In this document: in pieces, positions 16,070-21,538 of the stretch
Position numbering within the stretch: the first letter of the stretch is position 1
How the letters are laid out: each line of letters opens with the position of its first letter
NCBI RefSeq assembly: GCF_000212415.1
Contig: NC_015500.1
Location: 2,790,001 to 2,854,000, forward strand
Length of the DNA: 64,000 bases
From: Treponema brennaborense DSM 12168
GTDB lineage: Bacteria > Spirochaetota > Spirochaetia > Treponematales > Treponemataceae
Direction: 5' to 3'
Position numbers and translations under genes: made by a program
The notes under the pieces: model-generated
What the model was told of the DNA's origin: nothing
Seen by the model: the letters and a program-made list of their open reading frames with translations, nothing else
The model's database searches: none

Positions 16070-17425
16070 CTACACGGAAGAAATCGAATCGACCCGTTTC
16101 AAAACGGATACGAGCCGCTCTTTTTCAATCAGATCGATCGGGCGCCCTTCGGTATAATTACGGGCTTCCGCCGTAAACGTTCCCGCCGTAAAACAGATTC
16201 CGCGGCCGGCCTTCGTATCCCGGATACGGGCGTGAAAATCGCGCACGTACAATTCGCCGATGGAACCCGTCGTCCGATAAAATCGGAACACCACGGTGTC
16301 TTCCCATTTCGTCGTTTCGATTTCGGTGAACACTTCCGCGCACTCGGCGGTTACCGACAGATCCAATATTTTTACGAACGCTTTTTCATAAAAAATGGAA
16401 ACGATTTTCCGGCACAACGCGACGAAGTCGCTGTTTCCGGCGCTCAAATAGATTTGCAGATTCGCATTCTGTTTCAATTCCTGATACCGGTTTATCAGCG
16501 TTCCCACGTCGCGGTAATTCTGATTTTCGGCCTGAATTTCACGCAGCAGCGCAAGTCCGCGGTCAATATTCCGAGTTTGCAGATAACAGTGGGCTAACCG
16601 GTATTTAACTTCTACCAAAATATCCGCCGGAACGCCGCTGTGTTTCAGCGCGATTTCAAAATCCGTAATCGCTTTATCCAGCTGATTCGCGTTCATGTGC
16701 ATGATTCCCGCCGCCAAGCACGACTTCGCGCCGAACTGCGGATCGGGACGCAGATGCATGAACACTTTCATCGCTTTGTCTCCGAAACCGCTCTGCTGCA
16801 TCGAATCGGCCATAGCGAACAGCACTTCCTTATTTTCGGGGTTTTCATTCAGCGCACGCTTCAGATACGGCAGCGCGTCGCGGAATTTTTTCAAATTGTA
16901 AAAAGACAGTCCGAGCAGTCCGTACACGTCGGAAGCCTCGCGGTTCAGCATCAGCGCCTTTTTCAGCAGCGGTACGGCTTTTTCAAATTCGCCGCACTGA
17001 TAATACGCCTGCGCCAAATTATAGTTGACTTCAAAATTTTCGGGCCGCATTCTCAAAGCGGGAAGCAGCCCGCGCAACGCATCCTGCGGCCTATTCAGTT
17101 TGAGCGCACAGATTCCCTGCCGCAAAGACGTTTGCTGCAGATCGATTTCACGATGCACTTCCGCAATATTCAGCATGAGTTCGAACAGCGGCAATGCCTT
17201 TTCCCACGCATGATCGCGGTAATACAAATCCGAAAGGACGTTCAGCGCGTGCGCGTTATGCGGATCCTGCGCCAGCCTTTTAACCGCGTCGCGGATCGCC
17301 GCCGTTTTGTTTTTGGGTGCCGAATTTTCGCCCTTTTTCTTTTTCAGAGCCGATAATCCGTACAAAAAAGCACTAAAAAATATGATAACAACGACGACGA
17401 CCAAAACGGAAAATAACGTATCCAT
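16070..17425 (-). CDS. membrane-anchored TPR protein with degenerate Mrr-like C-terminal domain
   Basis: The protein (451 residues from ATG 17425) has one N-terminal membrane helix (FSVLVVVVVIIFFSAFLYGL), a basic linker, and about seven tetratricopeptide repeats (~55-330, for example GLLGLSFYNLKKFRDALPYL). The final ~100 residues resemble the Mrr/type IV restriction endonuclease fold: ELYVRDFHARI, then GRGICFTAGTFTAEAR, then GRPIDLIEKERL. Where Mrr enzymes have a catalytic QxK, this protein reads FRFYR, so nuclease activity is doubtful. A longer upstream frame to 17623 exists, but ATG 17425 is set by a near-consensus promoter ending 7 bp before it. It is divergent from the LysM gene. TPRs predict a protein scaffold role. 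Confidence 0.85.
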   Translation of the reverse strand: MDTLFSVLVVVVVIIFFSAFLYGLSALKKKKGENSAPKNKTAAIRDAVKRLAQDPHNAHALNVLSDLYYRDHAWEKALPLFELMLNIAEVHREIDLQQTSLRQGICALKLNRPQDALRGLLPALRMRPENFEVNYNLAQAYYQCGEFEKAVPLLKKALMLNREASDVYGLLGLSFYNLKKFRDALPYLKRALNENPENKEVLFAMADSMQQSGFGDKAMKVFMHLRPDPQFGAKSCLAAGIMHMNANQLDKAITDFEIALKHSGVPADILVEVKYRLAHCYLQTRNIDRGLALLREIQAENQNYRDVGTLINRYQELKQNANLQIYLSAGNSDFVALCRKIVSIFYEKAFVKILDLSVTAECAEVFTEIETTKWEDTVVFRFYRTTGSIGELYVRDFHARIRDTKAGRGICFTAGTFTAEARNYTEGRPIDLIEKERLVSVLKRVDSISSV

Positions 17426-17431
17426 TCTTTT

Positions 17432-17460
17432 ATTATGCCGTCCAATCGAAAAGGTGTCAA
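17432..17460 (-). promoter_or_regulatory. promoter of the TPR gene, leaderless arrangement
   Basis: On the minus strand TTGACA (17460-17455) and CATAAT (17437-17432) are 17 bp apart. Only AAAAGA separates the -10 from the ATG at 17425, which falls where transcription should start, so the mRNA is probably leaderless. Confidence 0.7.
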
Positions 17461-17512
17461 GAAAAACCATCAGGAGCAGCCGCATTATAAAATACGGTCG
17501 CTGCTGAAACCG

Positions 17513-17541
17513 TTGACAAGAATGCATATCAATAATAACAT
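17513..17541 (+). promoter_or_regulatory. promoter of the DnaK-SBD/LysM gene
   Basis: A perfect -35 TTGACA (17513-17518) is followed after 17 bp by TAACAT (17536-17541), a 4/6 match to the -10 consensus. The start codon is at 17604 behind AAAGGGATG, giving a ~55-nt leader. The TPR promoter lies 53 bp away, pointing the other way. Confidence 0.6.
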
Positions 17542-17603
17542 ATATGAGAGGTATGGCGTCTACCCGAAAATTCGTTTTCAGAGTAGCCTCGTAAAGGGAT
17601 GAT

Positions 17604-19370
17604 ATGAGTAAACAAATCGGCATAAAGCTGGCTGACGGAACATTTTATCCGGTCTTGGAAGAAGGTTTGCCCAAACGGAAAATACTCGATTTAACGACGG
17701 TGCAGGACAATCAGACAACCGTAATGGTCGATCTGTACCGCTCGGAAACGGGAACGATGGACGACGCAGAATACGTAGACACGCTGCAGATTTCGGGGCT
17801 GAATCCGCATCCGAGCGGAGAGCCCGATTTGAGTCTTTCCGTAAAATTGGATGAAAACGACACGCTTTCCGCCGAAGTTATCGACGCGGAATCCGGCCGC
17901 CACAGCGGTACGACCGTCCGGCTGATATCGCGTACGCCCGAAGAGCGTTCCGAAGCACCCGATTATACCTTAAACGAAACGGTTGACACCGACGGCGAAC
18001 TGCCGCCGCGGGAAGACGACACGACCGTCATAGACACTTCGGCCTTTGCCGACGACGTGTTCCCCGCCGAGTTCGACACAGCCGAATTCGATACCCCCGA
18101 CTTCGACACCGCCGGCGATGACCCTGAGAACGCCGTTCCTGCTGCCGAATTTACCGAAACGGACGATGCGGAGCTGCCGCCGATGCCGGACTTCACCGAA
18201 TCCGTTCCCGACGACTTTTCTCCGGAAGATTTTGAAATTGCAGCGATACCCGATACGGTTTTTGAAAATGCCGAGCCGGAACCCGCGGAAACGGACACGG
18301 ATATGGAAGCAGATATGGGTACGGAAGCGGATGCCGATAAACCTGCGGACGGCGATTTCCCGGCCGCCGGCGACGACGCACGGCTCGACGCTGACACTTT
18401 CACCGTTACCGACGATCCCTTTGCTGCAGAAGATTCCGCTGCGGACGGCGATTTTCCGGCCGCCGGCGATCCGGCTGCCGAATTCACCGAAACGGACGAT
18501 CTGGATCTGCCGCCGATGCCGGACTTTACCGAATCCGTTCCCGACGAACCCGGCGAATACGACGCCTTCCCTGTAAGCGCTGACGCCGCCGCCGAAAACG
18601 CTGACGACTTTCCTACAAGCACTGACGCTGACAGCGCATCGGACGAACCGGCCCTGCACGAAGACACGCTGCCGGATTTCAGCAAATTTGAACTCCCCGA
18701 CTTTGATGAACTGCATAAAACCGAAGAGCCGCAGCACACGCCGCTGTTCACCGACGACGACTTCGACGACCCGGCGTTCCACACCGATTTTGCCGCGGCA
18801 GACGGAAGCGGCGGCGAACTCGATTTCAGCGGATTATACACCGATGAATTTCCCGAAGGGGAACGGGAACCCGAGCGTAAAAAGAAAAAGCTCACCGTTC
18901 CGGTCATCATCTGCATTATCTGCGCAATCATCTGTTTAGGCGTGCTGGCGGGTATTCTGCTGTACGTGCCGTCGCAGATCAGTATTCAAATTACGCGGAA
19001 GAGCGACGCGGAACTGCAAAGTCACGAACCGGCGGCGCCCGTAACGTCGCTGCCGGAACAACCCGTGCGGATAGAGCCCGTACCCGTGCAGCCGGAACCG
19101 GAACCCGCACCGCTGCCTGAAGCGCCGGCTGCTGAAGAAAACCGCATCGTCGTTGCGGACACACCGGCGGTAATTCCCGCACCGCCGCCGGAGCCGGCCA
19201 AAGAACCGGAACCGGTACGCTATAAGATCAAATGGGGCGACACCTTATGGGATCTGGCGGATTCATACTACAACAATCCGTGGCTGTACAAGAAAATTGC
19301 CAAAGCGAACGGTATCCGTAATCCCGATTACATCATTTCGGGAACGTATATCATGATTCCGCCCAAATAA
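17604..19370 (+). CDS. DnaK substrate-binding-domain-like / acidic linker / membrane helix / LysM protein
   Basis: The 588-residue protein has an unexpected N-terminus. Residues ~5-115 follow the beta-sandwich substrate-binding domain of Hsp70/DnaK: IGIKLADGTFYPV, GLPKRKILDLTTVQDNQTTV, LQISGLNPHPSGEPDLSLS and LDENDTLSAEVIDAESG line up in order with DnaK. The ATPase domain is absent. Next come ~310 very acidic, Pro-containing residues with an internal 74-bp duplication, a Lys-rich stop, one membrane helix (~432-454), a Pro/Glu linker and a C-terminal LysM (~538-587, KWGDTLWDLADSYY). Topology by positive-inside rule: SBD in the cytoplasm, LysM on peptidoglycan. The lytic transglycosylase gene follows 8 bp later. 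Function is unknown. Confidence 0.88.
   Translation: MSKQIGIKLADGTFYPVLEEGLPKRKILDLTTVQDNQTTVMVDLYRSETGTMDDAEYVDTLQISGLNPHPSGEPDLSLSVKLDENDTLSAEVIDAESGRHSGTTVRLISRTPEERSEAPDYTLNETVDTDGELPPREDDTTVIDTSAFADDVFPAEFDTAEFDTPDFDTAGDDPENAVPAAEFTETDDAELPPMPDFTESVPDDFSPEDFEIAAIPDTVFENAEPEPAETDTDMEADMGTEADADKPADGDFPAAGDDARLDADTFTVTDDPFAAEDSAADGDFPAAGDPAAEFTETDDLDLPPMPDFTESVPDEPGEYDAFPVSADAAAENADDFPTSTDADSASDEPALHEDTLPDFSKFELPDFDELHKTEEPQHTPLFTDDDFDDPAFHTDFAAADGSGGELDFSGLYTDEFPEGEREPERKKKKLTVPVIICIICAIICLGVLAGILLYVPSQISIQITRKSDAELQSHEPAAPVTSLPEQPVRIEPVPVQPEPEPAPLPEAPAAEENRIVVADTPAVIPAPPPEPAKEPEPVRYKIKWGDTLWDLADSYYNNPWLYKKIAKANGIRNPDYIISGTYIMIPPK
18141..18214 (+). repeat. internal direct repeat copy 1 in the acidic linker
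   Basis: This 74-bp unit encodes AAEFTETDD, then LPPMPDFTESVPD, and recurs at 18474-18547 with a few substitutions. Confidence 0.85.
18474..18547 (+). repeat. internal direct repeat copy 2 in the acidic linker
   Basis: Second copy of the unit at 18141-18214, in the same frame, encoding the same LPPMPDFTESVPD block. A shorter DGDFPAAGD motif is also duplicated around it. Confidence 0.85.
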
Positions 19371-19378
19371 CGGGGTTT

Positions 19379-21538
19379 ATGAGACGTTCATTCGCCCCGA
19401 TCGTATGGTTTCTGACGATAGCAGTCTGTTTGGCAGCCGGATGCACCGATGCGTCCGGCGCCGATTCTCCGCACATTTCCGGTAAAAACGCGTATTATTT
19501 CCTCGGTGAAAAAAATCTCCGTGCAGGAGACGTCGTTTCCGCGCGCCGTTTTTTTGCCAAGGGCGCAAAAAAATCGGATCCGCCGCTTGCGCGCATGTGT
19601 GCGGAAGCCCTGACGAAAACCGGAACGCTCAAGGAACGCCTTGACGCTGCCGGCAAATACGCGGCAGTCTATTCAGATCTGCCGGCAAAATTGCGCGCGG
19701 CGCAGGAATTTGACGCGGCAAAAGAATACGCCGCCGTCCTGAAACTGACCGAAAACCTCGAAGCCGGTGCGCCGGATGAACTGATCAGATTGCGGCTTAC
19801 CGCGCTCGAAGCCAAACGCTACGCGGCCTTTGCAGCGGAAACCGAAAACTGGTTTTTCTCCCGCCCCGTTTCGCAGGAACACCGCACGTTTTTCGACACG
19901 ATCGGCGTACAGGCGCTTACCGATGCCCTCGGCGACGCCGACGTGCAACTTATCAAATTGCGCCTCAGCGTATACCGCAGGGATTACGCAGGCGCGTTTC
20001 AAATCGTAACGGAACTGCGCGGCGCGCAGGAAGACGGCGAAAGTCGGCTTGCTTCGCTGCCGGAGCAACTGCTCTCAGACGTCGGCAAAACGTTTTTATA
20101 CGGCAGCACCGATTATGCGGCGAACGCGGCTTTTTTTGACAAGGCCGCCACAGCTGCCGAAAAAGCTGCCGCCGAAAAAACCACGGCCGCACGTTCTCGG
20201 CCGGACGCCGCTTCGACGGATAACCCCGTACACGCGCTCTTTTTTACCCGTTTTTACGCGGGACGCCTATACGACCGCGCTTCCGCAGGAAACGTGCGCA
20301 CCGCGGCGGAACGGTATCTGCAGGCAATGCAGGCCGCTCCCGATGCCGACTATTACGACAACGCGCTGTGGTATTATTTTTCCGTTCAACTGAAAATCTC
20401 ACCGGACGCGGCGGAGCGCGCGCTTGCCGAATTCATCGGCACCGTGAACGATCCGTCCTATTACGCGGACTTTTTCGACGCACTGTGCGTTACGCTTTTT
20501 TCCGGCAGAAAATGGCAGCAGCTCTATCGCGTCTACCGCCTTATCGAGCCGTACGCCGACGCGGAAACTGTCTCCAAATACGCATACGTATGCGCCCGCC
20601 TTATCGAAGAAAAGCGGCTGATCCCGGAAGACGCCGCGGCGGCGAAGCCGCAGAATCCGGAAACACTCGCGCGCACGCTGTTTGAACGGGCGTACCGGCC
20701 CGGCGGCGCACCGTATTACCGAATGCTTGCCGGATATCGCCTCGGCACCGGCGCGCAGGAAAATCGGGAAACCCTGTATCGGACGGAGCTCGAGGCGCTT
20801 TCCGCACCCGATGAAAAACGGGAACTCCTGCTTTCCGGCTACGCCGCGTACGGACTGCCGGAACTCATTTACACTGAGTGGCAAAAAGATCCGCTTTCCG
20901 TCCGCATCACGGCAACCGCGCAGGCTGCGGATTTTCTTTCAAGCTGCGCCGATCCCGAATACCGCTCGCAGGGACTCAGAATGATGTCGAACGCTTTATA
21001 CCATGCGGATACGCAGCCGACCGAAGCGATGTATGAAACGGCGTATCCTCGGCTGTATCGAGATGAAATAACGGACGCGGCGGCGCAGTACGGATTGAGC
21101 GAATACGTGCTGTACGCACTTATCAGAAGCGAAAGCTTTTTTGATCCGCTCATCATGTCTCACGCCGGAGCAATCGGCCTTGCGCAGCTTATGGCACCGA
21201 CCGCAACCGATATCGCACGGAAATTGAAACTGAGCGAATACGATTTGGAAGACGCGCGCACGAACATACGGTTCGGCGCGTTTTATCTTGAAGAATTAAT
21301 CCGCCGACTCGACGGTTCGGTGCTCGACGCACTGTTCGCCTACAACGGCGGCATCACGCGCGTGCGCAATTGGAAAAAGGACTCGGGCGGACTGCCGCCG
21401 GATCTGTTTCTTGAAACGATTCCGTTCGCCGAAACGCGCGAATACGGCCGCAAAGTTACGTCGGCGGCAGTCTGGTACGGCATACTGTACTACGACAAAT
21501 CGGCTGCCGACGTAATCCGGGAAATCATGTCATTTTGA
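19379..21538 (+). CDS. soluble-lytic-transglycosylase-type lipoprotein (Slt, GH23)
   Basis: This 719-residue protein is a lytic transglycosylase that would cleave the glycan strands of peptidoglycan. The N-terminus is a lipoprotein signal (LTIAVCLAAGC, Cys ~22). Residues ~35-560 are a helical, TPR-like superhelix as in Slt70. The catalytic SLT domain is at ~565-700: ALIRSESFFDP, with the catalytic Glu in SES; then AGAIGLAQLMAPTA; DARTNIRFGAFYLEEL; and AYNGGITRVRNW. The gene starts 8 bp after the LysM gene, so the two are co-expressed, pairing a peptidoglycan binder with a peptidoglycan hydrolase. The stop overlaps the convergent cyclase gene by 9 bp. Confidence 0.92.
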   Translation: MRRSFAPIVWFLTIAVCLAAGCTDASGADSPHISGKNAYYFLGEKNLRAGDVVSARRFFAKGAKKSDPPLARMCAEALTKTGTLKERLDAAGKYAAVYSDLPAKLRAAQEFDAAKEYAAVLKLTENLEAGAPDELIRLRLTALEAKRYAAFAAETENWFFSRPVSQEHRTFFDTIGVQALTDALGDADVQLIKLRLSVYRRDYAGAFQIVTELRGAQEDGESRLASLPEQLLSDVGKTFLYGSTDYAANAAFFDKAATAAEKAAAEKTTAARSRPDAASTDNPVHALFFTRFYAGRLYDRASAGNVRTAAERYLQAMQAAPDADYYDNALWYYFSVQLKISPDAAERALAEFIGTVNDPSYYADFFDALCVTLFSGRKWQQLYRVYRLIEPYADAETVSKYAYVCARLIEEKRLIPEDAAAAKPQNPETLARTLFERAYRPGGAPYYRMLAGYRLGTGAQENRETLYRTELEALSAPDEKRELLLSGYAAYGLPELIYTEWQKDPLSVRITATAQAADFLSSCADPEYRSQGLRMMSNALYHADTQPTEAMYETAYPRLYRDEITDAAAQYGLSEYVLYALIRSESFFDPLIMSHAGAIGLAQLMAPTATDIARKLKLSEYDLEDARTNIRFGAFYLEELIRRLDGSVLDALFAYNGGITRVRNWKKDSGGLPPDLFLETIPFAETREYGRKVTSAAVWYGILYYDKSAADVIREIMSF

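Follow-up and report, generated by a model that had tools for sequence, protein, structure and literature searches.

The window analysed, a 64,000-nucleotide stretch of the Treponema brennaborense DSM 12168 genome, contains an ORF (17604–19370, forward strand) for a 588-aa protein, referred to here as the orphan protein, which combines an N-terminal domain of Hsp70 type with a long acidic tether, one membrane helix, and a C-terminal LysM domain (Table 1). The ATG of the downstream lytic transglycosylase (LTase) gene lies at 19379, leaving a gap of 8 bp after the orphan gene. An earlier note on this DNA had described ~310 acidic residues, one membrane helix, and a C-terminal LysM, a layout with which the composition and the Pfam LysM match agree. 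The lytic transglycosylase that it placed 8 bp downstream is also present and is specifically of the flagellar type, scoring 781.7 bits against NF047373 (flagellar assembly lytic transglycosylase; cut-off, 234). The stretch between the domain and the helix comprises 318 residues, including 101 D/E and 11 K/R residues, and the helix begins at aa 434, directly after ERKKKK. The intergenic region upstream of the orphan gene is likely to be the promoter region for both the TPR gene and the operon.

Table 1. Features of the orphan gene and its flanking regions in the window
Feature	Position	Strand	Basis or remark
TPR protein, divergent, with one N-terminal helix followed by KKKK	16070..17425	-	start at internal ATG, MDTLFSV
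Intergenic region between the TPR gene and the operon	17426..17603	.	putative promoter region
Orphan Hsp70 beta-substrate-binding domain, aa 1-116	17604..17951	+	profile, PDB, and structure matches
Acidic tether, presumably disordered and cytoplasmic, aa 117-421	17952..18866	+	composition
Basic stretch EPERKKKKLTVP ahead of the membrane helix, aa 422-433	18867..18902	+	translation
Single transmembrane helix with Cys, about aa 434-455	18903..18968	+	helix analysis
Pro/Glu-rich linker, aa 456-539	18969..19220	+	translation; predicted periplasmic side from LysM position
C-terminal LysM peptidoglycan-binding domain, aa 540-586	19221..19361	+	Pfam, E 6.5e-8
Flagellar assembly lytic transglycosylase (BB0259/LTase family), N-terminal lipobox-like LAAGC	19379..21538	+	NF047373

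Near-repeats were observed in the acidic tether (window positions 18140–18230 and 18345–18560: FTETDD.LPPMPDFTESVP; ADGDFPAAGD), suggesting that the tether grew by duplication. The TPR protein (16070–17425, minus strand) is membrane-anchored, and its C-terminal region matches Mrr_cat (E = 1.3e-7).

The N-terminal domain and its peptide groove

The standard picture of an Hsp70 module pairs an ATPase with a peptide clamp. The window protein aligns with only a part of this unit: aa 6–116 match positions 395–507 of the 599 positions in the Pfam HSP70 profile (E = 7.4e-7, above the curated cut-off), and aa 21–107 match the NCBIfam DnaK profile TIGR02350, with E = 4e-9 for the isolated domain (first 120 aa). 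Hsp70 substrate-binding domains (SBDs) were retrieved from PDB with E = 5.7e-10 in a single-sequence search, and Hsp70 matches reached E = 4.5e-14 when the family profile was used. The AlphaFold model of the domain, for which a class-wide alignment of 51 sequences served as input, contains eight strands (mean pLDDT, 75). In a Foldseek search of PDB, this model matched Hsp70/DnaK SBDs, many of which are peptide-bound (E = 1.9e-8, probability 1.00), with TM-scores of about 0.74–0.80 against the peptide-bound domains. The fold and the eight strands are shared with the beta-SBDs of Hsp70/DnaK (1DKX, 3H0X, and 6ZHI) at about 22–26% identity. These data indicate that the domain is almost certainly an Hsp70 beta-SBD in a protein with the architecture described above. 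The earlier note had assigned residues ~5–115 to the DnaK SBD and reported that the ATPase domain was absent; the profile, PDB, and AlphaFold/Foldseek results (aa 5–116) confirm the former, and the profile range together with the upstream in-frame stops described below confirms the latter. Two outcomes that the note had named as contrary to its reading, a structure prediction without an SBD fold and DnaK profile matches below significance, were both looked for; the fold was recovered and the matches were significant.

Profile searches revealed no N-terminal actin-like ATPase domain in the window protein: the match is confined to the range given above, and the beta domain begins at aa 1, just before the equivalent of DnaK L399. 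A VLLLD-type hydrophobic interdomain linker was not found in the window protein by sequence comparison, and the alpha-helical lid is absent, with the acidic tether beginning at its expected place. As judged from its sequence, the orphan protein would thus not be classified as a member of the Hsp70 chaperone family, three defining features (ATPase, linker, and lid) being absent, but it derives from one of that family's domains. Unlike Hsp70/DnaK, it is also membrane-bound and lies in a different gene setting. Two other explanations of the resemblance were rejected. All Treponema relatives have an in-frame stop at most 35 codons 5' of the domain, so the gene is not a misannotated or broken DnaK; a truncated gene or pseudogene is further ruled out by the constraint on the domain and by the intact canonical DnaK encoded elsewhere in the window's genome. 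Chance resemblance to Hsp70 is ruled out by the PDB, profile, and fold matches and by the existence of 55 close homologues and of homologues throughout the class.

Ten positions corresponding to the groove and arch of DnaK (1DKX) showed a mean conservation of 0.82 in the orphan domain, compared with 0.59 overall (p = 1.5e-4 against random sets of ten), and the corresponding values in a wider sequence set were 0.77 and 0.53, respectively. The four pocket-core positions (equivalents of I401, F426, V436, and I438, with F426 matched by L) are hydrophobic in every sequence, the Q433 equivalent is nearly invariant among family sequences, and the peptide-surrounding loop TTVxDNQ is retained. This conservation favours, without proving, retained peptide binding; the argument is weakened by the consideration that strands around a conserved hydrophobic core would stay conserved regardless. 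Almost all members have Leu/Ile at the position of DnaK T403, a substitution that could fill or narrow the pocket. On such comparisons, the chances that peptide binding has been retained appear about even.

The replacement at T403 and the loss of the lid and linker would also suit a beta-sandwich that no longer binds peptide and instead acts as a plain interaction fold, for dimerization or for a fixed partner, in the same flagellar scaffold role. This explanation gains from a strongly conserved new patch in Treponema (LYRS...MDDAEYVD), which maps to the L4,5 region and not to the groove, and from the single occurrence of a similar domain ahead of a membrane adenylyl cyclase, a setting that suits a fixed interface. 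Because the groove columns, including Q433 and the arch positions, are conserved above average and the TTVxDNQ loop is kept, we consider it rather unlikely. The cyclase fusion, a protein of 819 aa, is encoded in the window's genome near 132.8 kb (G000:C1; L163:894–3353, minus strand). Its N-terminal domain belongs to the same family (hhalign probability 96, E = 3.8e-9) and is followed in the same chain by a membrane helix, dCache, HAMP, and a class III nucleotide cyclase. The other 117 same-family genomes searched yielded no comparable fusion, the other matches being short open frames, two of which are orphan SBD genes.

Distribution, variable LysM, and topology

The genome scan identified 62 loci, i.e. 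55 in Treponema/Spirochaetaceae relatives and seven ordinary myxobacterial or deltaproteobacterial Hsp70s; the myxococcal matches (L059–L065) were rejected as orphan domains on the basis of their open frames upstream and a typical NBD–linker–lid translation. The domain, acidic tether, helix, and LysM are present in all 53 complete Treponema proteins, namely the window protein and those of 52 relatives with a strong membrane helix (the other three are cut by contig ends). Among these 53 proteins, the LysM passes a strict pattern in 40 and is evident by eye in the C-terminal sequences of 13. The tether varies from 145 to 692 aa among Treponema relatives, and thus its length is not constrained.

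Across Spirochaetia, the domain was matched in 207 of 395 genomes and in 91 of 133 genera at a threshold of E = 1e-9, mostly in frames sized unlike DnaK, and the same layout was identified in other spirochaete classes (L147–L150). The search for this architecture in other spirochaetes that the earlier note had proposed therefore extended it class-wide and beyond the class, with LysM as a variable part. A 1.14-Mb genome of T. pallidum size encodes an orphan protein of 310 aa with LysM (E = 7.5e-12); a literature search on T. pallidum locus names did not yield a gene name for this orthologue. In a genome of the Borrelia type, with a main contig of 917 kb, the product of the gene 5' of LTase has a divergent domain (hhalign probability 96, E = 4.6e-9; AlphaFold pLDDT, 87; Foldseek match to Hsp70 domains at E = 4.8e-5) followed by an acidic region and a helix, and differs from the window protein in having no LysM. 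By numbering, this gene corresponds to BB0260. The orphan domain protein may also be present in the agents of Lyme disease and syphilis. LysM as a universal part was ruled out, since it is missing in L116, L120, L121, L131, L139, L143, and L151; the proteins of L116, L120, L121, L139, L143, and L151 end shortly after the helix. Hence the Hsp70-like domain, the single helix (in most cases together with the acidic tether), and the genomic setting make up the constant part, and wall tethering cannot be the universal function, given the lack of LysM in the Borrelia-type and several other members.

The SBD is probably located in the cytoplasm and the LysM in the periplasm. The earlier note had reached this orientation by the positive-inside rule, an argument that fails across the family: K and R residues average 3.4 ahead of the helix and 3.2 behind it (p = 0.46), though ERKKKK precedes the helix of the window protein. 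Because the charge rule is undecided across the family, the predicted topology is based on the function of LysM, which binds the wall on the periplasmic side, and on the lack of a signal peptide.

Association with the flagellar lytic transglycosylase and flagella

The orphan gene is located immediately 5' of the LTase gene and on the same strand in 64 of the 66 class genomes carrying both genes on one contig. The two remain paired in nearly all Treponema loci that extend far enough, and the other neighbours change. Strict adjacency as a rule was rejected because two genomes of one genus carry a LysM-bearing copy far from LTase and a LysM-less copy beside it. In many class members, Treponema and the Borrelia-type genome included, and in spirochaetes of other classes, the upstream neighbour is the TPR gene. 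The gene downstream of the orphan gene in the window belongs to the same family as BB0259, the LTase of Borrelia burgdorferi, and the Borrelia-type locus contains an orthologous upstream gene. LTase (BB0259) is needed for periplasmic flagellar hook–filament assembly in B. burgdorferi, and BB0260 is unmentioned in the text of that study (PMC8517470).

When FlhA was compared with the orphan domain in 198 genomes, 110 contained both, 2 the domain only, 31 neither, and 55 FlhA only, the last group including Borrelia-type genomes whose divergent orthologue scores below the threshold. Co-occurrence was significant in a calculation that ignores the relatedness of genomes (Fisher p = 4e-11). Both domain-positive genomes without FlhA are fragmented assemblies (about 690 and 510 contigs), and both contain LTase. 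No match to the orphan domain was obtained in families f6, f7, f12, and f21, the main families of the listed FlhA-negative genomes. The orphan gene is essentially absent from flagella-less spirochaetes, and a standing association of this gene with LTase and flagella is very probable.

LysM and lytic transglycosylase are general wall functions, and no LTase match was found in 16 SBD-positive genomes. Both points accord with a general envelope scaffold or quality-control clamp, e.g. one acting at the wall-synthesis machinery on peptides or nascent membrane proteins, in which case the proximity of LTase would reflect wall remodelling rather than flagella. This explanation is improbable in view of the near absence of the orphan gene from flagella-less genomes of the four families, the flagellar type of the LTase, and the retention of an SBD without LysM beside LTase in the Borrelia-type genome.

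A proposed docking role at the cell wall

We propose that the orphan protein is a bitopic adaptor in the inner membrane, specific to spirochaetes, that serves the periplasmic flagellum in a docking or hub role (probability, roughly 0.35–0.5). The cytoplasmic SBD would hold, constitutively and without ATP control, a short stretch of extended peptide belonging to a cytoplasmic partner, which may be a flagellar basal-body, export, or placement protein or the tail of one, while the other end of the protein would be kept on the peptidoglycan by LysM in most members. The protein would thereby attach the cytoplasmic machinery to a single site in the wall, and the co-produced LTase would open the sacculus there for the hook and filament. 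Wall opening for rod and hook assembly is shared with the FlgJ/PG-hydrolase systems of flagellar wall penetration; unlike these, the orphan protein has no hydrolase domain and would serve as a docking part, not as a cutter.

The polar landmark protein FimV/HubP of gamma-proteobacteria combines a periplasmic LysM, one helix, and a long acidic cytoplasmic region of variable length with a client-binding end and a flagellar role, and its LysM is needed for wall binding and polar placement (PMC12918733). The orphan protein shares the LysM, the single transmembrane helix, and an acidic, predicted cytoplasmic region, but in reversed order, with LysM at the C-terminus. Unlike FimV/HubP, it has no C-terminal FimV/TPR domain (no TPR or FimV match was obtained in profile searches of the protein) and carries an Hsp70 module instead, and a TPR membrane protein is encoded next door. 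FimV_core gave no match in 60 genomes, but this search was uninformative because the control was also silent. The likeness appears to be one of analogy, not homology, and the orphan protein would not be a member of that family; the proposed layout would be that of a FimV/HubP hub turned around, in which the Hsp70 module forms the client-binding head. In its fullest form, the proposal is that a stand-alone, ATP-independent Hsp70 clamp heads a wall-anchored hub setting where and when the periplasmic flagellum crosses the peptidoglycan, conserved in Borrelia- and T. pallidum-type pathogens, which is possible but doubtful. If true, it would extend the Hsp70 module to a new use and give spirochaetes their own counterpart of FimV/HubP. 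In at least one bacterial class, the clamp persists by itself within a protein of the membrane and cell wall, one that accompanies flagella and a wall-cutting enzyme. This protein is a candidate for joining cytoplasmic flagellar machinery to one wall site, a motility question relevant to spirochaete pathogens, and the proposal offers a function for the hitherto unnamed gene beside BB0259. In the papers searched, nothing relevant was found on BB0260, orphan Hsp70 SBD proteins, or LysM–Hsp70 proteins, and an ATPase-less Hsp70 SBD with LysM had no prior description.

A second Hsp70 with an ATPase domain is encoded 5–7 kb from flhA in six spirochaete genomes (L131:11075–12586; G005, G025, G027, G089, and G112); that of the Borrelia-type genome has no lid. 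In B. burgdorferi, bb0264 is the last gene of the flgB superoperon (PMC11607428). These arrangements would be compatible with the orphan protein being a passive spacer or co-chaperone that hands clients to the resident DnaK or to this short second Hsp70. Such a role is very improbable, as the orphan protein has neither a J domain nor an NBD-docking linker and the window's genome keeps the orphan domain yet lacks this second Hsp70.

Two orphan-domain proteins coexist in family f11, one lacking LysM and encoded next to LTase, the other with LysM and encoded at a separate site (L139:5105–5716 and L140:6333–7340; L151:4745–5350; G033, G007, and G052), and the two copies suggest a division of roles.
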